Shown here: piece after piece, positions 7,234 to 27,249 of the stretch
How the letters are laid out: each line of letters begins with the position of its first letter
Numbering within the stretch: position 1 is the first letter of the stretch
Assembly: GCF_000949295.1 (NCBI RefSeq)
Contig: NZ_JXYS01000073.1
Coordinates: 1 to 49,113 of the forward strand
Source of the DNA: Acidithrix ferrooxidans
GTDB lineage: Bacteria; Actinomycetota; Acidimicrobiia; Acidimicrobiales; Acidimicrobiaceae
Reading direction: 5' to 3'
DNA: 49,113 nucleotides
The notes under the pieces: generated by a model
Database searches by the model: none
Told to the model about the DNA's origin: nothing
What the model saw: only the letters and a program-made list of their open reading frames with translations
Translations under genes and position numbers: made by a program

Positions 7234-8460
7234 GTGAATGAGACAAGAGGCATAGCTGCTTCAGTGCGGCGTCTCTTAGAGTTATCTGGTCAAGAGCTCT
7301 TTATTATTGCAACTTACCTGATCGTTACCGGCCTCTTTAGAGCTAGCCAGAACGCAGCACAGACCACTATGCCATTGATCGGTCACGACCTGCTTGGAAT
7401 TGGTGTTAGCCAGATTGGCTTGGTTGCAACGATCTGGGGTGGCGCAAGTGTTGTTACCAATATTTTTATAGCATCCATTCGAGGATCTAGCCGTTACATC
7501 TTTGTTGGTGGTTTGATTGCATTTCCATTTGGAATCTTGGCTCTTGTCTTTTCCCACACCTATCTCCAATTGATAGCCTCTATCTTGCTTTTGGCAATTA
7601 GCGGTGGGATAGTAATGCCTGCGCTAGCGAGCTCATCAGCAACCCTAGGATCGGTTTCCTCCAAGCGAGGCGCAGTTGCCTTTACTGTTGCACTCAGCTT
7701 GAGCCTCGCCATTGGTCCGCTAATCGAGGCAGGCGCCCTGCGCGCAAGTCACGATTCTTTGCGCATTGCGCTCGCTTTCTTTGTGCCATTGGCAGCTGTG
7801 GGATCTGTCCTTGGGATATTAAAGTTGGGTCGCACCAAAGATCAGCCTTCTTCAGGGTCATCCGCGGGCCAAAGAGCTTACGTGCTCTTTCGACAGCGAG
7901 ACTTTCGCGACGCAGTCTTTAGCCTTGCCCTGTACCAGTTTCCATTTGTCGCAATAATCAACTTTGGTGCAATCTTGGCTCGCACCCGCTTTGGTGCCAG
8001 TGCGGCCTTTTCACAAGAGGCATTGACTTCATTCTTTTTAGTTTCGTTTATCTCACGGGCGGTCTTGTTATTTCATCCAACCAAAAATAGAGATAAAACT
8101 TGGCTTAGAGGTGCAGCGATCTTGACGATTTTGGGTGTCGTTATAGTTGGGTTGGCTGGAAGTTCTCTATGGTTTGTAGTTGCAATGGGGCTTCTTGGGA
8201 TACCTCATGGCCTCACATATCCGCTGGCCCTCAACCTTTTGAATGAGTCGGCTACTCCGGATCAGCTCGCAAAGGGAAATTCAATTCTCTCGGCTACCAC
8301 TGGATTGATCTCTTTGACTGGGCCATTTGTCATCGGCCTTTTATCTGCTAGTTTTGGTATCTCAACTATGTTTTTGTTGATGGCGCTTCCAACTATTGGA
8401 TTTTCTATGCCGCTATTCTTTCACCACCATAAAACTGCCTCTGGGGCCCCAGTACTTTAG
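7234..8460 (+). CDS. MFS transporter of the sulfosugar island
   Basis: A 408-residue membrane protein with about 12 hydrophobic segments and a loop in the middle (GRTKDQPSSGSS, before RAYVLFRQRDFRDAVFS). I chose the GTG at 7234, which has GGAG at 7225-7228 in front. A longer frame begins at 7192 but adds a non-conserved leader. The family is the major facilitator superfamily; the substrate cannot be read from motifs. Its stop codon overlaps the stop of the convergent lactonase by three bases, and operator-like sites precede it. In this context it could import a sulfonate or export a product such as sulfolactate. Sulfoglycolytic loci normally need an exporter, and no TauE-type gene is seen here. 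Confidence 0.78.
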   Translation: MNETRGIAASVRRLLELSGQELFIIATYLIVTGLFRASQNAAQTTMPLIGHDLLGIGVSQIGLVATIWGGASVVTNIFIASIRGSSRYIFVGGLIAFPFGILALVFSHTYLQLIASILLLAISGGIVMPALASSSATLGSVSSKRGAVAFTVALSLSLAIGPLIEAGALRASHDSLRIALAFFVPLAAVGSVLGILKLGRTKDQPSSGSSAGQRAYVLFRQRDFRDAVFSLALYQFPFVAIINFGAILARTRFGASAAFSQEALTSFFLVSFISRAVLLFHPTKNRDKTWLRGAAILTILGVVIVGLAGSSLWFVVAMGLLGIPHGLTYPLALNLLNESATPDQLAKGNSILSATTGLISLTGPFVIGLLSASFGISTMFLLMALPTIGFSMPLFFHHHKTASGAPVL

Positions 8461-9320
8461 AGGCCGCTGTAAGCGACACTGGGCAGACCCTGGACCCCTG
8501 GTTCTAGAACAAAGATTGATCCGGCTGTTGGGTAGTCTTGTCTTTGGTCGGTTGGAATCAGAAATGCTCCACTTGTGACGTAGAGCTTTTCAAGGTTTTC
8601 TCCGCCAAAGCAGCAACTTGTTGTACCAATGTACCCAAGGTTGATAAGACTATCAAGGCTTCCATTTGGGTGGTAACGTCGAAGATCCCCAGAACGGATC
8701 ATAGATACCCAGATTCCTCCTTCGCTATCGACGCAAAGGCCATCGGGGTTTCCTGGCAATTCACCAAAGTCCACCACGATTCGAGTGGCCCCTATGGTAC
8801 CGCTCGATAAGTCGTACTCAAATGCTCTTAGTTGTCGGGTTGGGGTATCGATGAAGTACATCTCATCTCCAGCGGGACTCCATCCCATTCCATTGGAGAG
8901 TGTTACATCCTCTATTACGGGCACTAGCCCATTATCAGCCTCGTAACGATATAGACCACACGCTTTAGGAGTTCTAGCATAGGAGAGGGTCCCGATATAA
9001 AATCGTCCCAAGGGGTCACACTTTCCGTCGTTGAATCTATCTCCGCTTGGCGCGCTACATAGTTTTGCGGTGGAGCCATCTGTTTGGAGGTGCAATAGAT
9101 CGAGGTCAACGCCGACTAAGAAACCACCGCTTGTTTGTGGAATTGCGGGCGTACATTTGCCCTTGAAGGTCGCAATGTTGTGGTTTTCGTGGTCTCCACT
9201 GAGACAATTTAGACTGGAGCCGTCGATGTCGACCCAAAAGAGTGATTGACTCTTTTGGTCCCAAAAGGGAGATTCTCCCAACTCGGCTTTGGTCTCAATA
9301 ATCTCTATCTCTAGTGTCAC
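8457..9320 (-). CDS. SMP-30/gluconolactonase-family lactonase (candidate sulfogluconolactonase)
   Basis: A 287-residue six-bladed beta-propeller hydrolase. The divalent-metal ligands of the SMP-30 family are visible: E16 (LGESPFWD), N97-D98 (RFNDGKCDPLGRFYIGT), N143 (LSNGMGWSP) and D193 (PGNPDGLCVDSEGGIWVS). The start is GTG, with AGGA seven bases upstream. Members hydrolyse sugar-acid lactones. In a sulfo-Entner-Doudoroff route this enzyme would open 6-deoxy-6-sulfogluconolactone to 6-deoxy-6-sulfogluconate, after the SDR step. It is separated from the main dehydratase operon and is transcribed toward the MFS gene. Substrate assignment rests on context; gluconolactone, xylonolactone or arabinonolactone are the ordinary alternatives. 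Confidence 0.85.
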   Translation of the reverse strand: MTLEIEIIETKAELGESPFWDQKSQSLFWVDIDGSSLNCLSGDHENHNIATFKGKCTPAIPQTSGGFLVGVDLDLLHLQTDGSTAKLCSAPSGDRFNDGKCDPLGRFYIGTLSYARTPKACGLYRYEADNGLVPVIEDVTLSNGMGWSPAGDEMYFIDTPTRQLRAFEYDLSSGTIGATRIVVDFGELPGNPDGLCVDSEGGIWVSMIRSGDLRRYHPNGSLDSLINLGYIGTTSCCFGGENLEKLYVTSGAFLIPTDQRQDYPTAGSIFVLEPGVQGLPSVAYSGL

Positions 9321-9828
9321 TGTGATTTCCTAAAATATAAGGTTTGAACTTCAAATTAACGGCCATAGTCTGGCACGTATCGCCTCTTGAGCTTGGTTGT
9401 TTCAGTAACCTCAACCTTTAGATAATTGGACGGCGCAAGGCATGCTCGTCTTTAGGTATGGCCCAATTGGATTGGGTTCGACTTCTAAAGTGGAAGCGGT
9501 GATACCAAAGTCACGAGGAAGCGCCATATCGACTGCCATCTTTGGGGCGACGATGAGCCTATGAGGTTTCGGCCACTATCAAACCAGTTAGCGATCTTAC
9601 TTTTTTGCGATCCGACTTGAACCCATTGGGTCAGTGTTTGCCTGGAGGAACGCCCATGGCTAACTATAGGAGCCATGGGCGTTTGCCTATCGAACATATC
9701 TCCAATAGCTCCAGCTAGCAATATCTTCTAATGGATGGCGCTGGTTCTGCTCAGATAACTGCTCAATCAACAACGGGAGAGTCTCTCAATCGCTCTAGCA
9801 CTTTGGGTATTAGATTGCATCTAGGGTC
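9321..9828. terminator. Gene-free stretch with a 13-bp perfect hairpin at 9649-9683
   Basis: AACGCCCATGGCT (9649-9661) pairs exactly with AGCCATGGGCGTT (9671-9683) over a 9-base loop. It lies about 150 bases after the end of the ABC ATPase gene (minus strand). No U-tract follows on either strand, so termination by this hairpin is likely but not certain. The remainder must contain the lactonase promoter; I see no copy of the island's operator motif here. Confidence 0.5.
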
Positions 9829-11001
9829 TTAGATTGCATCGCCTGTTGCGATATCAAAGAAGTGAATTCTTTGGGTGTCAAGGTTTAGTTCCAGAGTTTG
9901 TCCCTGTTGAAATTGGTAATAGGGTGGTATGCGAGCTACGCCAAGGCCAATGCCGGCTCCCTTTTCAACGCCGACTTCAATGTCGCCCAAATCCTCTTCC
10001 TCTGCAATTGCACCAGCAACTTTGATCGCCTTAGCATCAAATCTAAAATAGACCAGTAGTTCAGAACCCAGTGCCTCAACCAGGTCGATTTGAACCTTCA
10101 ATTTGGCAGCTCCTTGTGCTGTTGTTGCTACCGATAAGTTTTCAGGACGAAAGCCAACTGCAATCTTTTTGCCTCGATATTTTCTGAGATTTTCACTATA
10201 GCCCATAGGGTCAAGTTCGAGACGTTGACCGCCCATGGCGAAGTAGGTTCCATCTTCGGAGAGGCCAGCTTCAAAGATGTTCATCGAAGGTGAGCCGATG
10301 AAGCTAGCTACAAAGAGGTTTGCTGGCTTTGAGTAGAGCGTTTGTGGATGATCGCACTGTTGAAGATCTCCGGCATGCATGACTGCAACCCTATCGCCCA
10401 TGGTCATTGCTTCCACTTGGTCGTGGGTTACATAGAGTGTGGCAACGCCGAGTTTTCGCTGGACTCTAGAGACCTCTGCACGCATTTTAACGCGAAGGTT
10501 CGCATCTAAGTTGGAGAGGGGTTCGTCCATGAGAAAGACTGCAGGATCTCGAACTATCGCTCGACCCATGGCCACTCGTTGACGTTGTCCTCCCGAGAGC
10601 TGTCCCGGCTTTTTATCGAGCTGCTCCGTTAGGCCAAGGACGTCAGCCGCATTGGTGACTGCCCTTGCTATCTCATCCTTGGAGGTCTTTTTTAATTTGA
10701 GTGCAAAGCCAATATTTTGAGCCACCGTCATGTGGGGATAGAGAGCGTAGTTCTGAAAGACCATAGCAATATCCCGCTCCCTAGCGGGTAGGTCGTTTAC
10801 GACTCTATCTCCGATTCTAAGGGTGCCATCGGAGATTTCTTCGAGACCGGCGACCATTCTTAGGGTAGTGGTTTTACCACATCCGGAGGGGCCAACCAAG
10901 ACAACAAATTCACCCTCTCCGATAGTTAGATCTAAACCGTGGACAACCTTTTGGCCGTTCGGATAGACCTTGGTCAGCTTCTCCATGGTGACTGTTGCCA
11001 T
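9829..11001 (-). CDS. ABC sugar importer ATP-binding protein (UgpC/MsmK/SmoE type)
   Basis: A 390-residue ATPase. I use the ATG at 11001, preceded by GAGGAG, because family members begin like MATVTMEKLTKVY; the open frame extends 30 codons further upstream without support. It has Walker A at residues 37-45 (GPSGCGKTT), the Q-loop region MVFQNYALYPHM, signature LSGGQRQRVAMGRA, Walker B VFLMDEPLSNLD and the switch His in YVTHDQ. A C-terminal TOBE/OB extension (GFRPENLS) is typical of carbohydrate importers with regulatory tails. It is separated from the permease genes by about 14 kb but is the only ATPase in the island, so it probably powers the importer encoded at 21362-27249. It lies divergent from the regulator gene, with operator sites between. 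Confidence 0.92.
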   Translation of the reverse strand: MATVTMEKLTKVYPNGQKVVHGLDLTIGEGEFVVLVGPSGCGKTTTLRMVAGLEEISDGTLRIGDRVVNDLPARERDIAMVFQNYALYPHMTVAQNIGFALKLKKTSKDEIARAVTNAADVLGLTEQLDKKPGQLSGGQRQRVAMGRAIVRDPAVFLMDEPLSNLDANLRVKMRAEVSRVQRKLGVATLYVTHDQVEAMTMGDRVAVMHAGDLQQCDHPQTLYSKPANLFVASFIGSPSMNIFEAGLSEDGTYFAMGGQRLELDPMGYSENLRKYRGKKIAVGFRPENLSVATTAQGAAKLKVQIDLVEALGSELLVYFRFDAKAIKVAGAIAEEEDLGDIEVGVEKGAGIGLGVARIPPYYQFQQGQTLELNLDTQRIHFFDIATGDAI

Positions 11002-11079
11002 TGAAATCTCCTCATTGCCCACCTTCGCCTTCGCGAAGCTTCGCCCCCCATGGCGAAAATTCTTTGCTAAGCAGTTAAG

Positions 11080-11090
11080 AGTTCTTACCA
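11080..11090 (-). promoter_or_regulatory. Candidate FadR-type operator before the ATPase gene
   Basis: On the minus strand it reads CAAGTGGTAAGAACT, 9 of 11 matches to TGGTAAGACCA. On the same strand a promoter-like TTGTCA precedes an AT-rich spacer and TATGCT, just upstream of this site, so a bound regulator would block or control ATPase transcription. Confidence 0.55.
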
Positions 11091-11217
11091 CTTGCGTTAT
11101 GCAAATGCTAGCATAGAGGATAATTTATATTGACAATGACAGTTTGTATTTAAAGTCCTAGAATGGCGAAAATCATTCAAATAGGCGATTAGATGATAGA
11201 TTGCTACAAAGATCAAG

Positions 11218-11228
11218 TGGTAAGACGC
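11218..11228 (+). promoter_or_regulatory. Candidate FadR-type operator before the regulator gene
   Basis: AAGTGGTAAGACGC, 9 of 11 matches to TGGTAAGACCA and the same AGTGGTAAG core as sites at 7122, 11080 and 20013. It lies 158 bases before the regulator start and fits autoregulation. Confidence 0.55.
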
Positions 11229-11385: not shown

Positions 11386-12105
11386 ATGGATACCATCTGG
11401 CGGCCCATCAAAGAGACGGGCCATCTAACCGAGAAGATCGTCTCGCGAATTGAACAGATAATCGATGAATCTAATTTAATTGCAGGATCACGTCTTCCCT
11501 CTGAGCGGGACTTAGCGAGACTCCTAGGGGTCTCTCGACCAGCACTTCGGGAGGCTGTGAAAACCCTTGAAGCACATGGTCGAGTAGTAGTTCGCCATGG
11601 TCAGGGTGTCTTTGTCAACGCAAGCGCCGATGAGGTTATGAGAATCCGGCTCGCAAATCAAGAGGTTTCCATGACAGAGCTCTACGCCATGCGAAATGTA
11701 CTTGAGGCACCGGCAGCCGGTTGGGCTGCAAATAGCGCGACCGATGAAGAGATAGAACGCCTTCGCGTAGCACTTGAGGCAGAGGAAGAGATCAGAACTC
11801 AGCCCACCGATTATGGGCGTCTTGCCGAATTAGATGCCGGTTTTCATCTAATGATAGTTGAAATCGCCAAGAACCGCTTTCTCCTGCAGACTGTTGGGAT
11901 CCTACAGGAGATGATGGCTGCCGGTATGGAAACCACGCTGACTGTTCCGGGTCGTCTTGATCGCTCCCGTCAAGACCATCGGGCGATCTTTGAAGCTATC
12001 CGAGATCATGATGGCGAAGCTGCTCGAATTGCATGTTCCTCACATATCATTGGAGCGCGGGAGGCCGCTTTGCTCAGAATACGTGGGGTGGAATCGCCCG
12101 AGTGA
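11386..12105 (+). CDS. GntR-family transcriptional regulator, FadR subfamily (FCD domain)
   Basis: A 239-residue regulator with GGAGGA before its ATG. The N-terminal GntR winged helix spans residues 15-75: SRLPSERDLARLLGVSRPALREAVKTLEAHGRVVVRHGQG is the textbook pattern. The C-terminal FCD ligand domain carries the Asp/His set that often binds a metal and an organic acid: D and H in LDAGFHLMIVEIAKN, then H in SRQDHRAIFEAI and H in ACSSHIIG. It lies immediately upstream of the suyAB operon and is divergent from the ABC ATPase. FadR-subfamily operators follow TnGTnnnACnA, and sites of this kind recur across the island. I infer it controls the island and senses a pathway acid such as sulfolactate or sulfogluconate. 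Confidence 0.92.
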   Translation: MDTIWRPIKETGHLTEKIVSRIEQIIDESNLIAGSRLPSERDLARLLGVSRPALREAVKTLEAHGRVVVRHGQGVFVNASADEVMRIRLANQEVSMTELYAMRNVLEAPAAGWAANSATDEEIERLRVALEAEEEIRTQPTDYGRLAELDAGFHLMIVEIAKNRFLLQTVGILQEMMAAGMETTLTVPGRLDRSRQDHRAIFEAIRDHDGEAARIACSSHIIGAREAALLRIRGVESPE

Positions 12106-12186: not shown

Positions 12187-12216
12187 TGAAACCAAACTTA
12201 GACACTGAGGTGACAC

Positions 12217-12513
12217 ATGAGTGATGAATTGGCCTTATTGGCCCATCTAGCGGGGGATTCCGTGGCTATCGCGGTGAGAGATGTTGAAGTCGGGCCTGCC
12301 CGATTGGCGTTTCTTGACTCTGAGGATCAAAGAGATATTACCGTTGCAGAGCCAATTCCGCTCGGACACAAAGTTGCTTTAGTGCAGATTCCGGCGGATG
12401 CCCAAATTATTGAGTACGGAGAGATTATCGGATCCTCTCGCCAAGAGATCGAAGTTGGAGAGTTGGTCCACATCCATAACATTAGGAGCAATAGATGGCA
12501 AATCAAGGCCTAA
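12217..12513 (+). CDS. suyA: SAF-domain small subunit, candidate (2R)-sulfolactate sulfo-lyase alpha (SuyA)
   Basis: A 98-residue SAF-domain protein. Features are GDSVAIAVRDVEVG, PIPLGHKVALVQIPADAQIIEYGEIIG and a C-terminal HIHNIRSNRW, matching the small-subunit or N-terminal domain of UxaA-family lyases (altronate and galactarate dehydratases, sulfolactate sulfo-lyase). In UxaA itself this domain is fused to the large domain. A separate subunit of this size, followed directly by a 385-residue partner, is the SuyAB arrangement. SuyAB splits (2R)-3-sulfolactate into pyruvate and sulfite. GAGGTG precedes the ATG. The end overlaps the next gene by 19 bases. The family is certain; the sulfolactate substrate is inferred from the large subunit and from the gene context. 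Confidence 0.72.
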   Translation: MSDELALLAHLAGDSVAIAVRDVEVGPARLAFLDSEDQRDITVAEPIPLGHKVALVQIPADAQIIEYGEIIGSSRQEIEVGELVHIHNIRSNRWQIKA

Positions 12514-13652
12514 CCGGTTTTCGTCGCGCAAATGGCGCTGTAGGTATTCGTAACTATGTGGTGATCCTAGCCGTCGATGATCTCTCGAACGCAGCGGTTG
12601 AGGGAATCGCCGCACTGGTTCCAGGGACGATAGCGATACCTCACTCCTATGGTCGTCTTCAATTTGGAGAGGATCTAGAACTTACCTTCCGAACCCTAAT
12701 TGGAACTGGCGCAAATCCAAATGTCGCGGCTGTGGTCGTAGTTGGTATTGAACCATCGTGGACCGATCGGGTAGCCGATGGCATTGCCTTAACTCAAAAG
12801 CCAGTTGGGCGCCTCTCGATCGAGCGAAATGGAGATCTCAACACTATCGCTTCAGGAGCTCGTATGGCTGCTAAATTTCTCCAGGATGCCAGCGAGATTC
12901 AAAGAACACCTGTTGAACGACATGAAGTGATGATGTCAATCAAGTGCGGGGAATCCGATACCACAAGTGGCCTCGGGGCTTGCCCTACGACATCGCAGGC
13001 TGTTGATCGCACTGTGGCCGCCGGTGGAACTGTTTTATTTGGAGAGACCACCGAGCTGACAGGAGGAGAGCATCTTATCGCCAAGCGTTGTATCAATGAC
13101 GCTGTAAGGGATAAGTTTATGGCTTTCTTCGACGACTATATGGCTACGGTAGAAGAACAAGGCGTAGATCTATTGGGTTCGCAACCTACCCAGGGCAACA
13201 TCAGAGGTGGTTTATCTACCATTGAGGAGAAGGCGATGGGAAATATTGCTAAGACCGGTTCGGTGCCAGTAGTAGATGCCCTTGAGCCCGCGGTTGCACC
13301 TAGTGTTCAAGGCTTAAATTTCATGGATACCTCTTCGGCCGCTGCGGAATGCATCACCCTTATGGCCGCTGCGGGAGCCGTGATTCACCTTTTTCCAACT
13401 GGACAGGGCAATATTATTGGCAACCCAATCGAGCCAGTAATCAAGATCACCGCCAATCCTCTTACTGCTAGTACGATGACAGAGCACATAGACTTAGACG
13501 TCTCTGGCCTTTTGCGCCGTGATTATGGCCTAAAAGAGGCGGGGGATCAGATCATGGAGTTGATCGATCGAACCATCAACGGTCGCCTTACAGCTGCTGA
13601 GGCGATTGGTCACAAAGAGTTCGTGATTACGAAACTTTATCGGAGCGCATAA
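12495..13652 (+). CDS. suyB: UxaA-family large subunit, candidate (2R)-sulfolactate sulfo-lyase beta (SuyB)
   Basis: A 385-residue lyase subunit overlapping suyA by 19 bases in another frame, so the two are translated as a pair. It begins GFRRANGAVGIRNYVVILAVDDLSNAAVEGIA. As I remember the SuyB group, it shares the variant 'DDxSNAA' here, where altronate dehydratases show 'TVNCS', and also PHSYGRLQFGEDLEL, GIEPSWT, SIKCGESDTTSGLGACPT, FGETTELTGGEH, GNIRGGLSTIEEKAMGNI and SSAAAECITLMAAAGAVIHLFPTGQGNIIGNP. The Cys residues in KCGES and GACPT are candidate iron ligands. The product would be pyruvate plus sulfite. An altronate, galactarate or other sugar-acid dehydratase is the alternative; those are usually single chains near 500 residues. 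The call rests on memory of motif patterns, without an alignment. Confidence 0.7.
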   Translation: MANQGLTGFRRANGAVGIRNYVVILAVDDLSNAAVEGIAALVPGTIAIPHSYGRLQFGEDLELTFRTLIGTGANPNVAAVVVVGIEPSWTDRVADGIALTQKPVGRLSIERNGDLNTIASGARMAAKFLQDASEIQRTPVERHEVMMSIKCGESDTTSGLGACPTTSQAVDRTVAAGGTVLFGETTELTGGEHLIAKRCINDAVRDKFMAFFDDYMATVEEQGVDLLGSQPTQGNIRGGLSTIEEKAMGNIAKTGSVPVVDALEPAVAPSVQGLNFMDTSSAAAECITLMAAAGAVIHLFPTGQGNIIGNPIEPVIKITANPLTASTMTEHIDLDVSGLLRRDYGLKEAGDQIMELIDRTINGRLTAAEAIGHKEFVITKLYRSA

Positions 13653-13654
13653 AT

Positions 13655-15127
13655 ATGGCAATTACAACTCGCGCACTTTTAGATGCGGGGGCGGTAGTTC
13701 CGATGTTGATTGGAGGCGAATGGGTTCCTTCGTTCGCCTCCAATCTTCGAGAGGTCACCAATCCAGTAGATGATAGGGTTATTGCTCAGATCGCCTACGG
13801 TGGTGTCAGCGAAGCTCAAAGTGCCGCCGACCAAGCAACAGCGGCATTTGAGAGTTGGTCTAATACCTCGAGCCGCTATCGAGCTGATATATTGTGGCGA
13901 ACATACGAATTGATTCTCGAGCGCGCCGATGAGATAGGCGCGCTTTTGTCTTTAGAGACCGGCAAGCTCCTCTCAGAGGGGATCGGCGAGACTCGCTTTA
14001 GTGCCGAATATTTCAGATGGTTTAGTGAAGAGATTCGCCGTCCTCAAGGTGAGGTCTTCGCTAGTGAAGATAGGAGCCGCAAACAACTTTCGATCTCGCG
14101 TCCAATTGGTGTAGCTGCAACGTTGACTCCTTGGAACTTCCCCCTTTCGATTCAAGCTCGAAAGGTGGCTCCGGCGCTGGCTGCTGGATGCACCGTAGTG
14201 GCTCGTCCGTCCGAAAAGGCACCCTTGGCTGTTGGGGAGCTATTTAGAGCTCTAGTCGATGCGGGTCTTCCCCCAGGAGTGGCGAACCTTATCTATGGCC
14301 CAGCATCAATACAGTCCAATGCGCTAATCGACCACGATGGCATAGGCGTGATCAGCTTTACTGGCTCCACTCCGGTTGGGTCGGCCCTTATGCGTCAAGC
14401 CTCTAACCGAATCGTTAGATGCGCCCTTGAACTTGGGGGAGATGCCCCCTATATCATCTTTAGCGATGCCAATATAGATCGAGCCATTGAGGGGCTAGCT
14501 ATCGCTAAGTTTAGAAATAATGGCCAGTCTTGTATTGCTGCAAATCGTGTCTTTGTAGAGGACTCCATTATGGATCAGGTCTGCGAGAGGCTCGCAAAGC
14601 TCACCTCCTCGATGCGAATTGGTGATCCCCTAGGGCACGAAAGAGTCGACCTAGGTCCGTTGATTGATAGTAGTCGGGTTCGTGATGTCGATCGAATTTG
14701 TAGAGATGCTCTTGATAGTGGTGCTAGTTTTCTAGGTGAATCTCCGATTGTTCCTGATGGCGCTAACTTTATGCGCCCTGGCTTTTTAGTTGATGCGGCT
14801 TTTGACTCTGCTCTCGCCAAAGAAGAGGTCTTTGGTCCAATTGCTGGAGTATTTTCTTTTTCAGACGAAGACGAAGTTATCCATCGGGCAAACGATACCA
14901 AGATGGGTTTAGCGGGTTATGCCTATACGAATAATCAAAGTCGAATTTGGCGCCTAGCCGAAAAGCTAGAGGTTGGTATTTTGGGGTTGAACCATCCACT
15001 TCCGTCGGTGGTCTACTCCCCAATGGGTGGCCTCAAAGGTAGTGGACTCGGTCGTGAAGGAGCCCATGACGGTCTCTTAGAATATCTAGAGACCAAATAT
15101 ATCTCTATAGGCATCGAGGAAAAGTGA
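13655..15127 (+). CDS. Aldehyde dehydrogenase, GabD type (candidate sulfolactaldehyde dehydrogenase)
   Basis: A 490-residue NAD(P)-dependent aldehyde dehydrogenase two bases after suyB. Landmarks are PWNFP (159-163), FTGSTPVG (235-242), the general base E259 in LELGG and the catalytic C293 in NNGQSCIAANRV, then KEEVFGPI. The usual Lys in the cofactor-binding 'KPxE' motif is Arg here (R184 in ARPSEKAP). It resembles succinate-semialdehyde dehydrogenases. In sulfo-ED pathways a GabD-like enzyme oxidises 3-sulfolactaldehyde to 3-sulfolactate, which is the step needed between the aldolase and SuyAB. Alpha-ketoglutarate semialdehyde dehydrogenase (Weimberg route) is the main alternative. Its end overlaps the dehydratase start by four bases. 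Confidence 0.87.
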   Translation: MAITTRALLDAGAVVPMLIGGEWVPSFASNLREVTNPVDDRVIAQIAYGGVSEAQSAADQATAAFESWSNTSSRYRADILWRTYELILERADEIGALLSLETGKLLSEGIGETRFSAEYFRWFSEEIRRPQGEVFASEDRSRKQLSISRPIGVAATLTPWNFPLSIQARKVAPALAAGCTVVARPSEKAPLAVGELFRALVDAGLPPGVANLIYGPASIQSNALIDHDGIGVISFTGSTPVGSALMRQASNRIVRCALELGGDAPYIIFSDANIDRAIEGLAIAKFRNNGQSCIAANRVFVEDSIMDQVCERLAKLTSSMRIGDPLGHERVDLGPLIDSSRVRDVDRICRDALDSGASFLGESPIVPDGANFMRPGFLVDAAFDSALAKEEVFGPIAGVFSFSDEDEVIHRANDTKMGLAGYAYTNNQSRIWRLAEKLEVGILGLNHPLPSVVYSPMGGLKGSGLGREGAHDGLLEYLETKYISIGIEEK

Positions 15128-20125: not shown

Positions 20126-21121
20126 TTGAATGAGAAGTCGCAAGAGTCGACGTCATCGCTACCCATGGACGTCTTGGTGGTTGAAGACGTTTGGGGTAGT
20201 GCATTTGATGAGATTGGTCAGAGACTAACCATCACCTACTTGCCTCAACTTTGGGAGGATGATTCGGCCCTTAAAGACTACATTGGCAACGTCAGAGCGC
20301 TGGTAATTCGCAATAGGACCCAAGTTACTAGAGACCTCCTAGCTGCCGCTCCAATGTTAGAGGTCATCGCCAGAGCTGGTGTCGGTCTCGACAATATCGA
20401 CCTTGTTGCAGCTAATGAGGCAGGTGTTGTTGTGGTAGCTGCCCTGGGAGCAAATGCCACAAGTGTAGGTGAACACGCCGTTGGTATGGCCTTTGCCTTT
20501 TCCAAAAACCTTATCAGCCAAGATCTCAAGACAAAAGAGGGAGGTTGGGATAGGCGCCTTGGCTTTGAACTTCAAGATCGATCTTGGGGGGTTATCGGCC
20601 TTGGAGCCACCGGACGCGAGACGGCTCGAATTGCCCATGCTATTGGCATGAAAGTCTATGGCTATGATCCAAATATCCCAATCGATAGATTCATCGAGGG
20701 CGTTGACACAAGGGTAGATACTATCGAAGAAACGCTCGCCTCGTGTGATTTCATCTCATTACATGTCCCCCTTACCCCAGGGACTTCAAAGATGGTTAGT
20801 TCTGGCTTTTTATCTAAGATGCGGAGGGGCTCTTATCTGATCAATTCATCAAGAGGTGGCTTGGTAGATGAGGATGCTCTTCTTGAAGCCCTTGACAACG
20901 ACCATTTAGCTGGGGCAGCCCTAGATGTTCGAGTTAGTGAGCCTCCTGCTTTGCATCCTTTGAATTCCCATGCCAAAGTGATTCATTCACCTCATGTGGC
21001 GGGGTTGACCTATGAGTCGCAAGATCGAATCACTGAGATCTTGGCCTTTGAGATTGATACTGTTCTTGGAGGAGAACCAGCGACGATGAATGTAGGAATT
21101 CACCAGATCGCCAATAGATAA
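20126..21121 (+). CDS. D-2-hydroxyacid dehydrogenase (candidate (S)-sulfolactate dehydrogenase, SlcC-like)
   Basis: A 331-residue NAD-dependent dehydrogenase of the D-isomer-specific 2-hydroxyacid family. The Rossmann motif is GVIGLGATGRETA. The catalytic trio is Arg in NSSRGGLVDEDAL, Glu in DVRVSEPPALHPL and His in IHSPHVAGLTYES. A TTG start with AAGGAG nine bases before it (20111-20116) fits best; the next in-frame ATG is 13 codons later without an RBS. The length is that of short-form PGDH-like enzymes without an ACT domain. SlcC, which oxidises (S)-sulfolactate to sulfopyruvate in Chromohalobacter, belongs to this family. With its divergent neighbour it would invert sulfolactate stereochemistry. 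A strong terminator follows. A hydroxypyruvate or phosphoglycerate dehydrogenase is the fallback reading. Confidence 0.84.
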   Translation: MNEKSQESTSSLPMDVLVVEDVWGSAFDEIGQRLTITYLPQLWEDDSALKDYIGNVRALVIRNRTQVTRDLLAAAPMLEVIARAGVGLDNIDLVAANEAGVVVVAALGANATSVGEHAVGMAFAFSKNLISQDLKTKEGGWDRRLGFELQDRSWGVIGLGATGRETARIAHAIGMKVYGYDPNIPIDRFIEGVDTRVDTIEETLASCDFISLHVPLTPGTSKMVSSGFLSKMRRGSYLINSSRGGLVDEDALLEALDNDHLAGAALDVRVSEPPALHPLNSHAKVIHSPHVAGLTYESQDRITEILAFEIDTVLGGEPATMNVGIHQIANR

Positions 21122-21361: not shown

Positions 21362-22738
21362 TTAGGCGACTACTGCGCTAGCTACTGCTGCTTGCATCGC
21401 TGCGAGTCCTGCTGAGACCGAAGATTGGTTCGCCATTACCGAGTTGAGCGGAGCTTGTAGCGTAGCTGAGACCGCAGGGTAGTTTTGAATCGATGGACGG
21501 GCTTTAGCACTTGCAAGAATCGTAGGTAGATTCTTTAGATTTGGTGATTTGAGCACTAGTTGTGTATCGGTCTGAACATCTTTTCGAGCAGATAAAAGGC
21601 CAGCTCCGGAGGTGAGCTGAATCTGCTGGGCTTGGGAGGTTAGATACTGGATTACTCTCCAAGCCGCCTCTGGTCGAGCTGACTTAGCGTTGATGCTATA
21701 CATCCAGCCACCGGTGCAGCCATGGCCGCTTCCATTGGTCAGACCAGGAAGAGGAGCATTATTGACCTTACCAGGTACCTTGGATTGCGTTGGACTATTG
21801 GCCAGCGTATAGGCATAAGTCCAGTTTCTCATAAAGAGAGCATTACCATTTTGCATCAATACCAAAGCATCGTTTGGCTTCATTGTAGAGGTTCCAGGAG
21901 GCGAAATCTTGGTAGTATAGACGGTGTCATAGAGAAACTGTAGCGACTTATTCCCGGCTGGAGTATTTAGGGTAACCTTGGATCCGGAGGAGATTTCTCC
22001 GCCGTAACCCCAGGTGTACTCACAGAATTCATCGACAATAGCCTCAATCTGTGCGCCTTCCCAGACGTAACCCCAGAAGTTAGGATTGGTTGCCCTTTCG
22101 GCAGTTTGAATCTTTTGTGAAATTCGAACTAGTTCCGCGTAGGTCGTCGGAACGGTCTCATTGTACTTTGTCAATAGATCGGTTCGGTAGTAGAGCTGGC
22201 CGACATCGATCGATTGTGGAATTGCATAGAGCTTACCCTTATACTTGCCTATATTTAGAGCAGTTGGGATAAATGCCGATTGGAATGCCGCACTTGCATA
22301 TTGATCAAGTGGTGCAACCCATCCCGCTGCAGCGAAGGTACCTGGGTAGGTAACGTCCATCGTCAATATGTCCGGAGTAGATGCCCCACCAGCTAAAGCC
22401 GTTACGTATTGATTATAGACGTCGTTGGTCACTGGCGGGATTGTCTGGAAGGTCACAGGAGTCTCTGGGTTGGCATTGTTCCACTGATTGATCAAAATAG
22501 TGGTGGTCCCTGAGTTATCCTGAGGACCTGCAATGACAATCGGTCCAGTCTGGCGCGCTGGTGCACCTGAAGTTGTGGTTCCAGCAGCTGCAGCGGCAGT
22601 TGTGGTACTCGATGAGGTTCCACTACCGCAAGCTGCTAAAACTGCGCCACCAACGGCCGCTACTCCAAAGCCAAGAAATTTTCGCCTTCCAATTCCTCCA
22701 TCTGAGATTATCTCATTGCCTTCAGTTTCTGAACCCAT
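21362..22738 (-). CDS. ABC sugar importer substrate-binding lipoprotein (family 1)
   Basis: A 458-residue extracellular binding protein. The N-terminus has both a twin-arginine motif (GRRKFLGFG, residues about 17-25) and a lipobox (VLAACGSG, Cys about 37). It is followed by a Ser/Thr/Ala-rich linker and a long periplasmic-binding-protein-like domain (DILTMDVTYPGTFAAAGWVAPLDQ, ...GCTGGWMYSINAKSARPEAAWRVIQYLTS). AAAGGGAG precedes the ATG. It is the binding component for the permeases at 25367-27249, in the same orientation but after the glycosidase, with its own 214-base leader containing a palindrome. In sulfoglycolytic loci such as the Agrobacterium smo cluster, the equivalent SmoF binds sulfoquinovosyl glycerol. 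Here the ligand is inferred. Confidence 0.9.
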   Translation of the reverse strand: MGSETEGNEIISDGGIGRRKFLGFGVAAVGGAVLAACGSGTSSSTTTAAAAAGTTTSGAPARQTGPIVIAGPQDNSGTTTILINQWNNANPETPVTFQTIPPVTNDVYNQYVTALAGGASTPDILTMDVTYPGTFAAAGWVAPLDQYASAAFQSAFIPTALNIGKYKGKLYAIPQSIDVGQLYYRTDLLTKYNETVPTTYAELVRISQKIQTAERATNPNFWGYVWEGAQIEAIVDEFCEYTWGYGGEISSGSKVTLNTPAGNKSLQFLYDTVYTTKISPPGTSTMKPNDALVLMQNGNALFMRNWTYAYTLANSPTQSKVPGKVNNAPLPGLTNGSGHGCTGGWMYSINAKSARPEAAWRVIQYLTSQAQQIQLTSGAGLLSARKDVQTDTQLVLKSPNLKNLPTILASAKARPSIQNYPAVSATLQAPLNSVMANQSSVSAGLAAMQAAVASAVVA

Positions 22739-22952: not shown

Positions 22953-25367
22953 CTAGTGTTGGTGAATCAGTTGGATCTCTAGATGCACTACTGTCCCATC
23001 AGTTTTATGCAGATGGGCCTGAGTAGTCCTAGGCATTGGTTCGTCACAGATGAGCTTTGGCGCGGTCCCAAGCTCTGGGTTTGATGGAATATAGCGGTAT
23101 CTAAATTCGTGACCTTCTTGGTAGATGGTGCTCTCACATTGAGGGCTTTCCCAAATCTCGATCTCCCAAGTATCGCTTGGGATCTCTCCGGTGTGTTGGC
23201 CTAGGGGTCCGAATGCTATGGCTGCGCCGCTTCGTACAAAGATGGGAATCTTGTCCAGCGGAACCTCCATCTCAAATTTCTTTGGACCAAGGTGCGACTC
23301 TCCACTCCAAAAATCTGACCAATGCCCAGATGGAAGTACCACCTCGACCGTTGCAGTTGGTGCGTCGTTTGAGAGGACTGCGACAACCAGAAGGTTTGAT
23401 CCGATTAGAAATTCATGTTCAACTCGATAGAGGTCTAGATTTGTCTCGTCGGCGAAGATAAGTGGCCTTAGCATTGGCCACCCGAACTTTTCGCCTTCGA
23501 ATGCCGCACTGATCAAGTTGGGAATAAGTTGATATCGAAGGTTTACAAAGCGTCTTACGATATCGCAGGCTTCTTCTCCAAAGTGCCATGGTTCTCTAGG
23601 CGTGAGACCGTGAAAGCGAGTTAAGGGAGATAGGGATCCAACCTGTGCCCATCTTATATATAGCTCCTTAGAGGGACCCATTCCATAGAAGCCGCCGACG
23701 TCATGTGACCACATTCCTGGAGCAGATAGTGCCCAGCTCAAACCACCCCTTAGGCTATTAGCGAGGCCGGCAAAGCTTGCTTCTGGATCTCCGCCCCACT
23801 GAGCTGGATAGCGCTGGGAAGATGCCCATCCACTACGACTCCAGACCAATGGGTTTGAGTCACGCTCTTCATCGATAGCCTCAGATACAGTGCGTGAATA
23901 CCAAAACGGGTAGAGGTTGCGCCAATTTCTACCCGTCCTCCCGTCTGACATTAAAGCAGAGTTGGGAAGTCCTTCGCCGAAGTCACACTTGAGAACTGAG
24001 ACACCAAGTGCAAGTAACTCCTTGTTCTTTTCTTTCCACCATTGGCGTGCGGCGGGATTTGAAAAGTCTAAAAGGCGTCTAGGTCGACCGTCTCTGGAGA
24101 AGGTTCGATCGACTTTGGCAGGTGCGCCACTAGAGTCGCGGACCAAGTACCCATTTTCTTTGGCTTCGGCGGTAATGGGTGATGCTTCATCTAGGTAGGG
24201 GAGTTCCCATAGTGAGATGTGAAAGCCTTCCTCCAAAAGAGTCGCCATCATCTCCTTGGGATCTGGATACTTCTCCTGCGACCAGATAAAGTCACAATTC
24301 AATCGGTCTAAAACAAGCCAGTCGGGGTCAATGTGCAAGACGTCGCATGGGATCTGATGGTCTCTCATCCCATGGGCTGCTTCCTCGAGAGAAGCTCGAT
24401 TTGGATAACGACATCTAGACATCCATAGGCCAAATGCCCATCGAGGTGGGACTCGCATGCGACCAGTTAGTTCGGTGTAGAGGCTAAGGCGACTTGGCAG
24501 ATCGACGCCAGCTATCAAAAAGAGATCAAGGCGGGCCTCCTCATTTGCCACCTTAAGAACGCTTGGATATGGATTTCCAACGTCGACTTTCATCGGTCCG
24601 GGGCCATGAACAAAGGCGCTATAGCCCCTTGAGGAGTGAAAGATCGGAGCTGGTTTATAGACGAGCCCCGTCCCAACCCCTAGGCCATCGTTGGCTATTA
24701 ACTCGAATGAGGCGCCATTGTGGATAAAGGGTGTGAACTGCTCGCCAAGGCCGACTATGTATTCGCTGGGTTGAATTTCAAGCGAGAAGGTCGATGCGTT
24801 ATCGCTAAAGCCGATGGTGGGTTCGAATGGAAAGCCAGCTACTTGACGGCGATTGCCACCGCCCATGGTCACTACGTTTCCAGATAGGTCGAGAAGTTCG
24901 AAGCTAAAGGGTTCTTTGGTAAGGCGCAAAGTTAGCTGGGTTGTCGAGATGTCTAAGTGGGTGCCGGTCTCGACAAGTGTAACTGGTACGAGCTGCGGTA
25001 GTCGATCTATGAGAATCCCAAATTCTATACCATCGTGGTCATTTGTCTTGAGATGGTCAGGGACCATTGTGATTCGGATGGTATTTGGGCTATATGCACG
25101 AATATAGAGGCTCGCGCTTGCTCTTACCGTGGGGTCTGGTGCGTCGTCATCTGAATTGATGCTCGGAGCATTTGGCAGTAGTGATTCGAGTCCCTGCTTG
25201 TTTGGGGGCTCCGAGGTTATGATTCCTGCAACGCTTCCTAATGGTTGGTAACTTACGGCCCCGAGACGTAGCTGGACGCCACTGGCATCTTGGCTATAGC
25301 TCTCGATCGTTCTGATCAAAAAGTCGCCCTCGAGCTCTTTGGTATCTAATCTCTCAACGTTGGTCAT
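22953..25367 (-). CDS. Glycoside hydrolase family 31 (YicI-like alpha-glycosidase)
   Basis: An 804-residue GH31 enzyme. The ATG at 25367 shares its A with the TAA of the permease upstream (TAATG), so I reject the 37-codon longer frame. The catalytic nucleophile is D462 (LKCDFGEGLP) and the acid/base D527 (QWGGD), 65 residues apart as usual. IDPDW and W..CDF.W line the -1 site. The pattern VLKCDFGE, WGGD...SLRGGLS, WSHDVGGF is closest, by eye, to the alpha-xylosidase YicI. The R-x-x-W pattern of known sulfoquinovosidases (YihQ, SmoI) appears only partly, as R355-L-N-C. It lies in the importer operon and would release the sugar from an imported glycoside. Sulfoquinovoside, isoprimeverose or another alpha-glycoside are possible. 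Confidence 0.88.
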   Translation of the reverse strand: MTNVERLDTKELEGDFLIRTIESYSQDASGVQLRLGAVSYQPLGSVAGIITSEPPNKQGLESLLPNAPSINSDDDAPDPTVRASASLYIRAYSPNTIRITMVPDHLKTNDHDGIEFGILIDRLPQLVPVTLVETGTHLDISTTQLTLRLTKEPFSFELLDLSGNVVTMGGGNRRQVAGFPFEPTIGFSDNASTFSLEIQPSEYIVGLGEQFTPFIHNGASFELIANDGLGVGTGLVYKPAPIFHSSRGYSAFVHGPGPMKVDVGNPYPSVLKVANEEARLDLFLIAGVDLPSRLSLYTELTGRMRVPPRWAFGLWMSRCRYPNRASLEEAAHGMRDHQIPCDVLHIDPDWLVLDRLNCDFIWSQEKYPDPKEMMATLLEEGFHISLWELPYLDEASPITAEAKENGYLVRDSSGAPAKVDRTFSRDGRPRRLLDFSNPAARQWWKEKNKELLALGVSVLKCDFGEGLPNSALMSDGRTGRNWRNLYPFWYSRTVSEAIDEERDSNPLVWSRSGWASSQRYPAQWGGDPEASFAGLANSLRGGLSWALSAPGMWSHDVGGFYGMGPSKELYIRWAQVGSLSPLTRFHGLTPREPWHFGEEACDIVRRFVNLRYQLIPNLISAAFEGEKFGWPMLRPLIFADETNLDLYRVEHEFLIGSNLLVVAVLSNDAPTATVEVVLPSGHWSDFWSGESHLGPKKFEMEVPLDKIPIFVRSGAAIAFGPLGQHTGEIPSDTWEIEIWESPQCESTIYQEGHEFRYRYIPSNPELGTAPKLICDEPMPRTTQAHLHKTDGTVVHLEIQLIHQH

Positions 25368-26272
25368 TACTTTACTGCTCCTAGTGTCATTCCACTTATT
25401 AGACGCTTTTGAAAGACTGAGACTGCTAATGCGACGGGAACGAGTGCCAAAACCGTTGCGGCTGAGATAATTCCCCATGGGAAGGTATATTGGCCAGGAT
25501 ACAAAGCGATACCTACTGGAAGGGTTCGCATTGAGTTGTTGGTCATGAAAGTTAGAGCTAAGAGAAATTCATTCCAGTCGCCGGCGAAGATGATAAGGCC
25601 CGCTGTGACGATTCCAGGTACCGAGACCCTCAAGATGATCTTAAAGAAGGCGCCAAAATAGCCAAGACCATCGACCATTGCCGCCTCTTCAAGCTCCTTG
25701 GGGAGGTCTTGAAGGTAGGCATTCATTAGCCATACGCAGATTGGAAGGCTCAAAAAGGTATAGGGGATGATAAGAGCCCAATAGGTATTTAGGAGGTTGA
25801 AGTGGCGGAATAGGTTAAAGAGTGGAACGACAAGCGTTATAGGTGGCAGGAATGAAAATGCAAGGATGACCAGCAAGATCACCTTTTTAAATCTAAATCG
25901 TAGACGCGCTATTGCATATCCAGCAAAGGTACCTAAGATCAGGCTTGCCAAGGTGGCAGTTACGCTGACGACTAGGGAATTTATGTAGTAGCGACCAAAG
26001 GGTGCCTGGCCAAGGGCCGTTCGGTAGCTACCCAGTGTCAGCGATGATGGTATCAAGGTGACCGGCTGAGTTGTCAACTGGGCCTGTGGCTTTAGGGATG
26101 TTATCAGGATCCAAAGGACTGGAAAGAGGGCGTAGAAGCCTAGAACTATTGCACTAGCGTTGAATAGGCCCATTCGAGCTTTCGCCCACGCTCCTCTTTT
26201 TGATCGACGAACTGGGCCACTTTTATAGGCCCGCTTAGAGATCTTTTGATTTGGTATCTTTGTCATTGACAT
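25367..26272 (-). CDS. ABC sugar importer permease, MalG/SmoH type
   Basis: A 301-residue inner membrane protein with six hydrophobic segments. The EAA loop that docks the ATPase is visible: ELEEAAMVDGLGYFGAFFKIILRVSVPGI. The N-terminus is positively charged (KRAYKSGPVRRSKRG), consistent with a cytoplasmic start. It follows the other permease by 20 bases and overlaps the GH31 gene by one base, so the three form an operon. It is the second permease of a carbohydrate importer (CUT1 type). The two small in-frame starts (MSMTK) cannot be separated. Confidence 0.9.
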   Translation of the reverse strand: MSMTKIPNQKISKRAYKSGPVRRSKRGAWAKARMGLFNASAIVLGFYALFPVLWILITSLKPQAQLTTQPVTLIPSSLTLGSYRTALGQAPFGRYYINSLVVSVTATLASLILGTFAGYAIARLRFRFKKVILLVILAFSFLPPITLVVPLFNLFRHFNLLNTYWALIIPYTFLSLPICVWLMNAYLQDLPKELEEAAMVDGLGYFGAFFKIILRVSVPGIVTAGLIIFAGDWNEFLLALTFMTNNSMRTLPVGIALYPGQYTFPWGIISAATVLALVPVALAVSVFQKRLISGMTLGAVK

Positions 26273-26292
26273 CTATTTGCTCAATTCGCTCT

Positions 26293-27249
26293 TTAACCCA
26301 GGGACTCTGGGCGGTATAGGACTTTTACATATAGGAATGCAAAGGCCGAGATCATGATCGCAAGGATAACCCCCATTGCAGAACCATATCCGAAGTTGAG
26401 GCCCTGTATTGCTTGTTGGTATAGGTAAAGTGGAAGGTTCAAAGTTGAGTAGCCTGGTCCTCCTAGGGTGAGGCCATAGATTATGTCGAATGCTTGAAGG
26501 GCTTCAACGGTACGAAGTACTAGAACAACCAAGATGGTGGGGCGCAACATCGGCATTGTAATCCTGGTGAACCTTTGCCAAGCGGTGGCACCATCGACAT
26601 CTGCCGCCTCATAGACAGAGGCAGGAATCGATTGAAGACCGGCCAAGAATACTAAGGCTGCAAATGAGTTGACCTTCCAGATCGCCACGAGAAAGAGGGC
26701 GATTACCGCTAACGTAGGTGAACCAAGCCAGACAAAAGAGTGTGGTAATCCAAGGCGTTGTAGTACTCCGTTGAATAGTCCATAGTTGGGGTCGTACATA
26801 AAGCGCCATACAACTGCGGTGATAACTGTCGGCATCATCCACGGAAAGAGCAGGGCTGCTCGAAATAGACCGCGACCTCGAAACTCTCGATTAGCCATAA
26901 GTGCTACTCCAAGGCCTACCAAAGTTTGGCCAAGCACGCTCAAAATCGCATAAAAGAGGGTGAATTTGAGGGCCAACCAAAAGACATGGTCGTGGATCAA
27001 TTGAGTGTAGTTAGAGAGGGTAAAGTTATGTTGAAGTGGGTCAGTTAGAATATAGTGCTGGAATGACCATGTAATAGTCTGAAGCGATGGATACAACAAG
27101 ATCGCACAGAGTCCAAGAATTGTAGGGAGAATAAGCCAAAAGGCAAATCTTCGCTCCCTAGCACCGAGACTTTTTCCTCGCTTTTTTTTGCCGCTACTTA
27201 CCATGGAACCAGACAAAGTCCTGGGTTCACTACGAGTAATTTCTTTCAA
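26293..27249 (-). CDS. ABC sugar importer permease, MalF/SmoG type
   Basis: About 318 residues with six or more membrane segments and the EAA loop VYEAADVDGATAWQRFTRITMPMLRPTI. I prefer a TTG start at 27249 because GGAGGGG lies directly before it; in-frame ATGs at 27276 and 27267 lack such a site. The basic N-terminal stretch SSGKKKRGKSLGARERR precedes the first membrane helix. It is the first gene of the operon permease-permease-GH31. A PdhR-like operator lies about 120 bases upstream. With the lipoprotein at 21362-22738 and the ATPase at 9829-11001 it completes a CUT1 importer. Confidence 0.88.
   Translation of the reverse strand: MKEITRSEPRTLSGSMVSSGKKKRGKSLGARERRFAFWLILPTILGLCAILLYPSLQTITWSFQHYILTDPLQHNFTLSNYTQLIHDHVFWLALKFTLFYAILSVLGQTLVGLGVALMANREFRGRGLFRAALLFPWMMPTVITAVVWRFMYDPNYGLFNGVLQRLGLPHSFVWLGSPTLAVIALFLVAIWKVNSFAALVFLAGLQSIPASVYEAADVDGATAWQRFTRITMPMLRPTILVVLVLRTVEALQAFDIIYGLTLGGPGYSTLNLPLYLYQQAIQGLNFGYGSAMGVILAIMISAFAFLYVKVLYRPESLG

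Follow-up and report, generated by a model that had tools for sequence, protein, structure and literature searches.

Can the genes of a single locus take a six-carbon (C6) sulfosugar all the way to pyruvate and sulfite, a breakdown that is usually split between two microbes? The question is raised by an island of genes in a 49,113-nucleotide stretch of Acidithrix ferrooxidans DNA (assembly GCF_000949295.1, contig NZ_JXYS01000073.1, positions 1 to 49,113; hereafter the window), for which an earlier note, made from the sequence alone, had proposed a sulfo-Entner-Doudoroff (sulfo-ED) pathway joined to a sulfo-lyase. A. ferrooxidans Py-F3 is an actinobacterium that oxidizes and reduces iron and comes from a pH 2.5 mine stream; its published draft genome has 4.02 Mb, 183 contigs, and 47.8% G+C (PMC4417699), and the source genome used here totals 4,019,867 bases in 183 contigs. 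Domain and profile searches recovered all gene families that the note had named. Our answer is that the locus probably encodes a tandem sulfosugar pathway, in which a separately assembled route resembling sulfo-ED is joined to the sulfo-lyase SuyAB and would yield two pyruvate and sulfite.

In the proposed pathway, an ATP-binding cassette (ABC) importer would bring in a sulfosugar glycoside, from which a GH31 glycosidase would free the C6 sulfosugar, most likely sulfoquinovose (SQ), the sugar of plant and algal sulfolipid. A short-chain dehydrogenase/reductase (SDR) would oxidize this sugar to a lactone, which may open spontaneously or by means of a lactonase, and an IlvD/Edd dehydratase (EDD) would then form a 2-keto-3-deoxy-6-sulfo acid. 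An aldolase of the dihydrodipicolinate synthase (DHDPS) type would split the acid into pyruvate and sulfolactaldehyde (SLA), and an aldehyde dehydrogenase (ALDH) would convert SLA to (S)-sulfolactate. Dehydrogenases resembling SlcC and ComC would turn (S)- into (R)-sulfolactate via sulfopyruvate, and SuyAB would release the second pyruvate and sulfite. We infer the substrate and the reactions of the SDR, dehydratase, aldolase, and GH31, as well as every activity in the organism, from sequence. The reading is carried by the conserved linkage of the whole block and by the SuyB, ALDH, SlcC-like, and ComC-like proteins, which fall in clades with copies from sulfonate loci.

In three sister genomes of the same genus (G001, G007, and G008), order and strand are kept over 14 genes at protein identities of 66-95%. 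The series runs ATPase, GntR, SuyA, SuyB, ALDH, EDD, SDR, DHDPS, Ldh_2, D-2-hydroxyacid dehydrogenase (D-2-HADH), solute-binding protein (SBP), GH31, permease, permease, and spans about 9829 to 27276 in the window, with the SMP-30 lactonase outside it. SuyB was found in four of the 12 genus genomes searched, and because gene order persists in three same-genus genomes and SuyB recurs in these four, the arrangement of the block is not chance. Eight of the 12 genomes are less than 90% complete, so the absence of SuyB from some of them may be a gap. SuyA was found in four of six genomes searched, the same four that have SuyB. Patchy presence combined with intact synteny suggests that the block was gained or lost as a unit. 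On a contig of a metagenome-assembled genome (MAG; L018), the GntR, SuyA, SuyB, ALDH, EDD, SDR, and DHDPS genes stand in identical order up to the contig end, and a SuyA homolog immediately precedes SuyB in L018, L019, L023, L008, and L009. Within the window, suyA and suyB overlap, suyB and the ALDH gene are 2 bp apart, and the ALDH, dehydratase, and SDR genes overlap by 4 bp each; this overlap or near contact suggests that suyA-suyB-ALDH-EDD-SDR form one operon. The ABC, GH31, and SBP genes lie on the opposite strand to this series.

The protein pair proposed for the last step has the two-subunit make-up of SuyAB, with a small SAF protein beside a protein carrying GD_AH_second and GD_AH_C domains. 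A tree built from 33 rows selected by hand places the window SuyB inside a 27-row SuyB clade, which a branch of 2.15 (SH-aLRT 100) sets apart from UxaA/GarD-type rows; most SuyB rows had been found via patterns from an alignment that included the window protein. A tblastn search of 72,556 plasmids made without such patterns gave the same identity gap, read from the best 30 of 313 matches: 13 records at 56-76%, followed by 17 at 39.5% or less. Two Rhodococcus records reached 75-76% (76% to the R. jostii RHA1 copy), and those at 56-60% came from Rhodobacteraceae, Sinorhizobium mexicanum (60%), Methylobacterium, Cupriavidus pinatubonensis (57%), Paracoccus (57%), and Caballeronia. SuyAB is reported from the species C. 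pinatubonensis (PMC12890257), and S. mexicanum appears among species listed with SuyA/SuyB homologs (PMC12421959). On the tree placement and the plasmid identity gap we reject an altronate or galactarate dehydratase. According to the available text of PMC6336799, sulfolactate sulfo-lyase is without the cysteines of the UxaA/GarD superfamily. These cysteines are lost at positions 30, 54, and 85 of the window SuyB and likewise in four other SuyB rows; a halophile UxaA-type row (L012) is also without them. Clade and make-up thus support the pair as a predicted SuyAB-type (R)-sulfolactate sulfo-lyase.

The R. jostii RHA1 copy, on plasmid pRHL1, has SlcC- and ComC-like genes close by, and the GntR next to suyAB there is 48% identical to the window GntR/FCD regulator. 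An ALDH homolog near this suyAB (L008, 24615-27388) is in two separated pieces and probably interrupted. A Paracoccus ferrooxidans plasmid copy, which also falls in the SuyB clade, has neighbors annotated hisD, SDR, and galactitol-phosphate dehydrogenase, which we take to be the hpsNOP set. The same locus holds a gene of the sulfate exporter family, an ABC importer with a nitrate annotation, and a molybdopterin oxidoreductase accompanied by a cytochrome c.

The Ldh_2 and D-2-HADH proteins of the window fall with copies from actinobacterial SuyB loci, in clades of 10 rows (support 100) and nine rows (98), respectively, in trees that each had one E. coli outgroup as a weak control. The best NCBIfam model for Ldh_2 was NF040650 (L-sulfolactate dehydrogenase; 220 bits, cut-off 500) and its best PDB match was 2x06, also an L-sulfolactate dehydrogenase, scoring just above a malate/lactate dehydrogenase. 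For D-2-HADH the best model was phosphoglycerate dehydrogenase, below cut-off. The scan of named genomes confirmed at least 586 SuyB loci, of which we used the best 80. In 52 of these, SuyB is flanked by 4 kb or more on each side; 37 of the 52 have an SlcC- or ComC-like gene no farther than 6 kb from SuyB, and 29 have both. Neither gene was present in any of six UxaA/GarD-type control loci of 4 to 21 kb. Both known ED routes are reported to yield (S)-SLA, whereas SuyAB takes (R)-sulfolactate (PMC12421959), so carrying both dehydrogenases makes chemical sense. Their clades support the two proteins as predicted sulfolactate dehydrogenases.

In a 26-row tree, the window ALDH belongs to a seven-row clade (SH-aLRT 99) with two sisters, L018, Pseudonocardia kunmingensis, Thermogemmatispora aurantia (L019), and L141 (from G123). 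The P. kunmingensis copy adjoins SuyB, and the sulfonate-locus ALDH references owe their assigned function to gene context. E. coli GabD and the sulfo-ED ALDHs of Proteobacteria (the assayed type) form a different clade, and the arabinose-locus ALDH and GucD lie far away. Key residues reported for RlGabD (Trp-Asn-Phe, Arg171, Arg289, Glu261, and Cys295; PMC10599462) are all visible in the window ALDH at the expected spacing, a match that does not discriminate because succinic semialdehyde dehydrogenase carries the Arg pair too. The clade with sulfonate-locus ALDHs supports its assignment as a putative SLA dehydrogenase. The T. aurantia locus (a Chloroflexota isolate; 1-15634) holds an Arg357-type GH31 (see below), transaldolase-family, ABC, fucose-isomerase-like, SuyAB, ALDH, SlcC- and ComC-like, and GntR genes, and is a candidate complete-pathway locus combining a sulfo-transaldolase (sulfo-TAL) route with SuyAB. 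L141 and L142 hold YihT homologs (54% and 50%), YihV-like kinases (37% and 33%), a fucose-isomerase-like family, ABC permeases, and an ALDH, without SuyA; their gene content predicts sulfo-Embden-Meyerhof-Parnas (sulfo-EMP) loci. The earlier note had named a SuyAB-like sulfo-lyase, two sulfolactate dehydrogenase families, and a GabD-type aldehyde dehydrogenase; all three held in the tree tests, and the grouping of SuyB with altronate/galactarate dehydratases that it had given as a refuting outcome did not occur.

The sugar half has a different ancestry from its known counterparts. In the tree, the dehydratase joins those of the sister genomes and L018 (support 100), and this group sits within a set of 20 rows that includes dehydratases from arabinose- or monosaccharide-transporter loci (L138-L140). 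Our sulfo-ED references were the loci of Shinella sp. WSD5-1 (L101) and three rhizobial plasmids (L102-L104); their four dehydratases form a clade of their own elsewhere in the tree, which rules out orthology with the proteobacterial sulfogluconate (SG) dehydratase. Identities reach 60% to other proteins without an assigned role, and the best other match in 396 sampled genomes of the phylum was also 60%. The label "L-arabinonate dehydratase" alone means little because the Shinella sulfo-ED enzyme bears it too. Three residues (N45A, R58H, S82A) are conserved in five block dehydratases and present in at most two of 33 others. The characterized sulfo-ED aldolase is of the PF03328 (aldolase/citrate-lyase) type; the window aldolase is a PF00701 protein of the DHDPS type. 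It has a YNIP..T motif and the Schiff-base Lys, and two arabinose-locus DHDPS proteins of the 2-keto-3-deoxyarabinonate (KDA) kind read QNAPAL; presumably these motifs mark aldolase-type and KDA dehydratase-type DHDPS proteins, respectively. The window ALDH is not of the ketoglutarate semialdehyde dehydrogenase type, nor its DHDPS protein of the KDA dehydratase type, that characterize the oxidative L-arabinose pathway.

The lactonase, which we treat as an optional part, is 33% identical to the Shinella sulfo-ED lactonase. Lactonases at four loci elsewhere in genus genomes look unrelated to it: two gave no blast match, and the second copy in the A. ferrooxidans genome and a copy from one sister were 23-24% identical. 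An SMP-30 gene above the Pfam cut-off occurred in four of four SuyB-positive and none of three SuyB-negative genus genomes examined. Sulfo-ED clusters without a lactonase are described in the available text of PMC13372026. Since the dehydratase clade, the DHDPS aldolase, and the SDR residues differ, the front end, which would work like sulfo-ED, is by descent not the known sulfo-ED. The complete candidate set claimed in the earlier note stands at the level of families; its dehydratase, aldolase, and SDR are not orthologous to characterized sulfo-ED enzymes, and its lactonase lies outside the conserved block. The CUT1-type importer and GH31 named as sugar supply are present and syntenic, and the GH31 is not of the YihQ type.

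The GH31 protein keeps both catalytic Asp residues. The hallmark residues of a sulfoquinovosidase (SQase) are Arg301, Trp304, and Tyr508 of YihQ. In the window protein Trp304 is replaced by Cys and Tyr508 by Phe, which rules out a YihQ-type SQase, and Arg392 aligns with Arg301 in two alignments and not in a larger one. An AlphaFold model (mean pLDDT 77, poor at residues 549-565 next to the active site) most resembled YicI-type enzymes, and the 50 best matches listed included no SQase. A loop reading SRCRY supplies Arg357, which is present in seven of 70 distinct proteins (those of the window and its three sisters, and those of L019, G123, and G209); in the remaining 63 the position holds Ser, Thr, or Tyr or, in the five YihQ-type SQases, a gap. 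The 70 proteins, after one duplicate row was dropped, are an uneven sample made up mostly of best matches to the window protein, and Arg357 stands out clearly only in comparison with homologs whose loop is as long (25 such rows lack Arg: Ser 16, Tyr 6, Thr 3). Its substitution for YicI Phe277, seen in one alignment, was dropped; in a larger alignment the register moved by two residues. Outside the genus, Arg357 occurs in three lineages (L019, G123, and G209), all in predicted sulfoglycolysis loci, and the 20 kb covered at L141 and L142 show a single GH31 each, which belongs to the Arg357 and not the YihQ type. Five of six actinobacterial GH31 loci without Arg357 (L143-L148; L143 covers 5.7 kb) have no sulfoglycolysis homologs. 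Among the matches listed for 295 genomes of the genus of G209, a GH31 above 39% identity occurred only in G209 itself. Known SQase classes are reported as one GH31 class and GH188 (PMC10755693), and we propose that the window protein may be a second, new type of sulfoquinovosidase. Two Chloroflexota MAGs (L054 and L094) carry, some 4 to 8 kb away from SuyB, a GH31 that has the YihQ hallmarks (R, W, Y), and are further candidates for SQ-to-sulfite loci.

We weighed three other explanations. Two unrelated functions could share the island, a sulfolactate module (SuyAB, SlcC, ComC) and an oxidative pathway for pentoses or alpha-xylosides (GH31, ABC, SDR, L-arabinonate/xylonate-type dehydratase, DHDPS, ALDH). 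The dehydratase does group with those of arabinose-type loci, two of which (L138 and L139) have SDR and DHDPS genes adjoining, and the nearest GH31 folds are those of YicI alpha-xylosidase. The non-phosphorylative L-arabinose kit (L-arabinonate dehydratase, SDR, DHDPS) is in fact the closest neighborhood of the dehydratase in the tree, but the window departs from it in aldolase motif, in ALDH clade, and in placing suyB, ALDH, dehydratase, and SDR genes in near or actual overlap in one operon. The ALDH sides with sulfonate-locus enzymes and not with the arabinose-locus ALDH or GucD, the DHDPS motif is unlike that of arabinose-locus KDA dehydratases, and members of the GH31 clade turn up again at loci predicted for sulfo-TAL and sulfo-EMP; we regard a shared island of this kind as unlikely.

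A distinctly unlikely alternative keeps the pathway and changes its substrate to another C6 sulfosugar, for example sulfofucose, for which archaeal N-glycans are one reported source. Sulfofucose is reported in N-glycans of Thermoplasma acidophilum and its ED-SuyAB degradation in Paracoccus (PMC12421959), and the window dehydratase, SDR, and aldolase do differ from SQ enzymes. However, the sulfofucose dehydratase SfcF is described as an enolase-family protein and the corresponding aldolase as PF03328 (PMC12421959), neither of which is in the block, and the GH31 clade is common to predicted sulfo-EMP loci with YihT/YihV homologs and therefore points to SQ. The dehydratase of the cluster is instead PF00920/PF24877; the search for the SGal dehydratase SfcF covered the cluster and no other part of the genome. 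We give very little credence to a cluster that degrades only three-carbon (C3) sulfonates such as sulfolactate or 2,3-dihydroxypropanesulfonate, its sugar genes being bystanders or acting on glycerol conjugates. Sugar genes are indeed rare within 6 kb of SuyB (EDD at one and GH31 at three of the best 80 loci), whereas here synteny covers the whole block, including the CUT1 ABC, GH31, dehydratase, and aldolase genes, and the dehydratase and SDR genes share the apparent operon of suyAB.

A tandem pathway from a sulfosugar to sulfite has several observations against it. No growth data on sulfosugars were found, and the genome paper, which says nothing of sulfonate use, infers that sulfate is the only source of sulfur (PMC4417699). 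The dehydratase is 55-58% identical to L-arabinonate dehydratases of arabinose-type loci versus 50-52% to SG dehydratases. In the SDR, Y-x3-K is kept, the canonical catalytic Ser is Ala in five of five aligned sequences, and there is no equivalent of Arg152, reported to bind the sulfonate in the Pseudomonas putida SQ dehydrogenase (PMC12133307), at the position mapped via the Shinella and rhizobial homologs. The GH31 is without the SQase Trp and Tyr; one actinobacterial GH31 without Arg357 lies near kinase and isomerase homologs (L145; G064), and two from Chloroflexota with Tyr at the Arg357 position (L049 and L058) lie a few kb from SuyB. The SBP is nearest to a trehalose/maltose-binding protein, followed in the PDB ranking by MalE3 and then by the sulfoquinovosyl-glycerol-binding protein SmoF. 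The ComC- and SlcC-like proteins reached no NCBIfam cut-off, and the Paracoccus reference small subunit gave no SAF match at 0.01. Conservation of the lactonase is unsupported, with no match to it between the neighboring major facilitator superfamily (MFS) and ATPase genes in G008, where an MFS homolog at 75% identity adjoins the ATPase; in G001 and G007 the contig ends less than 800 bp from the ATPase, so these two genomes speak neither for nor against it. Domain scans recognized neither a sulfite oxidase nor a TauE-type exporter in the block.

Complete routes from sulfosugar to sulfite have precedents, and the novelty here is a different recruitment of enzymes. The expectation that two organisms are needed meets two reported single-organism cases, Paracoccus wurundjeri, which takes sulfofucose to pyruvate and sulfite via an ED-like route and SlcC/ComC/SuyAB (PMC12421959), and Ensifer HO-A22, for which complete SQ mineralization was proposed (PMC10599462), so the route is not a wholly new kind. 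P. wurundjeri likewise has SlcC, ComC, SuyA, SuyB, and an ABC importer in one cluster; it differs in an enolase-type dehydratase and a PF03328 aldolase, and the available text of PMC12421959 gives no GabD/SlaB homolog and no identified SLA dehydrogenase. The window has instead an IlvD/Edd dehydratase, a DHDPS aldolase, an ALDH of the sulfonate-locus clade, and a GH31. Canonical sulfo-ED, as in P. putida SQ1 and Rhizobium leguminosarum SRDI565, shares the roles of CUT1 ABC, GH31, SDR, SMP-30, IlvD/Edd, aldolase, and GabD-type ALDH. In contrast to it, the window has a dehydratase of another clade, DHDPS in place of PF03328, an SDR and a GH31 without known sulfonate-binding residues, added SuyAB/SlcC/ComC genes, and an actinobacterial host. 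All four genes of SuyAB and SlcC/ComC systems are here in the expected clades, whereas linkage to a sugar dehydratase is rare in those systems (one of the best 80 loci). With YihQ-type SQases the GH31 shares the fold and catalytic Asp pair, while Trp304 and Tyr508 are replaced and the SRCRY loop holds an Arg.

Sulfo-ED is described as mainly proteobacterial with several members in Actinobacteria (PMC10599462), and as proteobacterial in a review (PMC12890257), each in the text available. The names Acidithrix and Acidimicrobi- are absent from the main text of PMC10599462, and a literature search largely without subscription papers found no paper with both Acidithrix and sulfoquinovose. We offer a further idea tentatively, at a little under even chances: acidophilic Actinomycetota may have evolved SQ breakdown of the ED kind anew, drawing on enzymes of the pentonate type and on a DHDPS aldolase of class I, with the route fused in one operon to the sulfo-lyase and fed by a second, independently evolved GH31 SQase class (Arg357) that also serves sulfo-TAL and sulfo-EMP elsewhere.

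If true, a major organosulfur compound would be fully mineralized in one iron-cycling extreme acidophile, the sulfo-ED route would have evolved more than once, and an SQase class would have gone unrecognized, missed by surveys keyed to YihQ residues or proteobacterial sulfo-ED enzymes. The pathway steps are open to test with the cultured strain and a handful of purified proteins. Algae and archaeal glycans are possible sulfosugar sources in acid streams; SQ is reported in Sulfolobus glycoconjugates (PMC4388408) and sulfofucose in Thermoplasma (PMC12421959). As for sulfite, two genes of the TauE family and two with a sulfite-oxidase fold (Oxidored_molyb) lie elsewhere in the genome, and oxidation by ferric iron is a speculation. 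The two molybdoenzyme genes of the sulfite-oxidase fold lie about 5 kb apart (G000:C133:13362-18703) and may oxidize sulfite.

Table 1. Genes of the island and their predicted roles, in window coordinates.
Feature	Coordinates	Strand	Evidence
MFS transporter, possible importer or sulfite/organosulfonate exporter	7192..8460	+	PF07690
SMP-30/gluconolactonase-family lactonase, optional part	8457..9320	-	PF08450 232.6 bits
CUT1-type ABC ATPase (UgpC/MalK type)	9829..11091	-	PRK11650 457.7 bits, cut-off 432; syntenic in 3 sister genomes
GntR/FCD regulator, probable local regulator	11386..12105	+	PF00392+PF07729
SuyA-like small subunit, 98 residues, SAF domain	12217..12513	+	PF08666 32 bits, cut-off 21
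SuyB-like large subunit, proposed (R)-sulfolactate sulfo-lyase forming pyruvate and sulfite	12495..13652	+	GD_AH_second+GD_AH_C; SuyB clade
ALDH, proposed SLA dehydrogenase (GabD/SlaB type)	13655..15127	+	7-row clade with ALDHs of sulfonate loci
IlvD/Edd dehydratase, proposed sulfosugar-acid dehydratase	15124..16842	+	PF00920+PF24877
SDR, proposed sulfosugar 1-dehydrogenase	16839..17630	+	PF13561/PF00106
DHDPS-family class I aldolase, proposed KDSG (2-keto-3-deoxy-6-sulfogluconate) aldolase forming pyruvate and SLA	18022..18930	+	PF00701
Ldh_2 family, predicted ComC-like (R)-sulfolactate dehydrogenase	18927..19967	-	NF040650 below cut-off; clade with Suy-locus copies
D-2-HADH, predicted SlcC-like (S)-sulfolactate dehydrogenase	20126..21121	+	PF02826/PF00389; clade with Suy-locus copies
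Sugar ABC SBP	21362..22738	-	PF01547
GH31 glycosidase, non-YihQ clade, Arg357; proposed new type of sulfoquinovosidase	22953..25478	-	nearest folds YicI-type
ABC permease	25367..26272	-	PF00528; syntenic
ABC permease	26293..27276	-	PF00528; syntenic

Beyond the island, a SipW/archaeal-type signal peptidase adjoins a small Thr/Ser-rich, probably secreted protein without a known family (28670-30277). Further downstream, the window holds an MFS transporter, a TetR regulator, and a luciferase-like monooxygenase (34963-39683).

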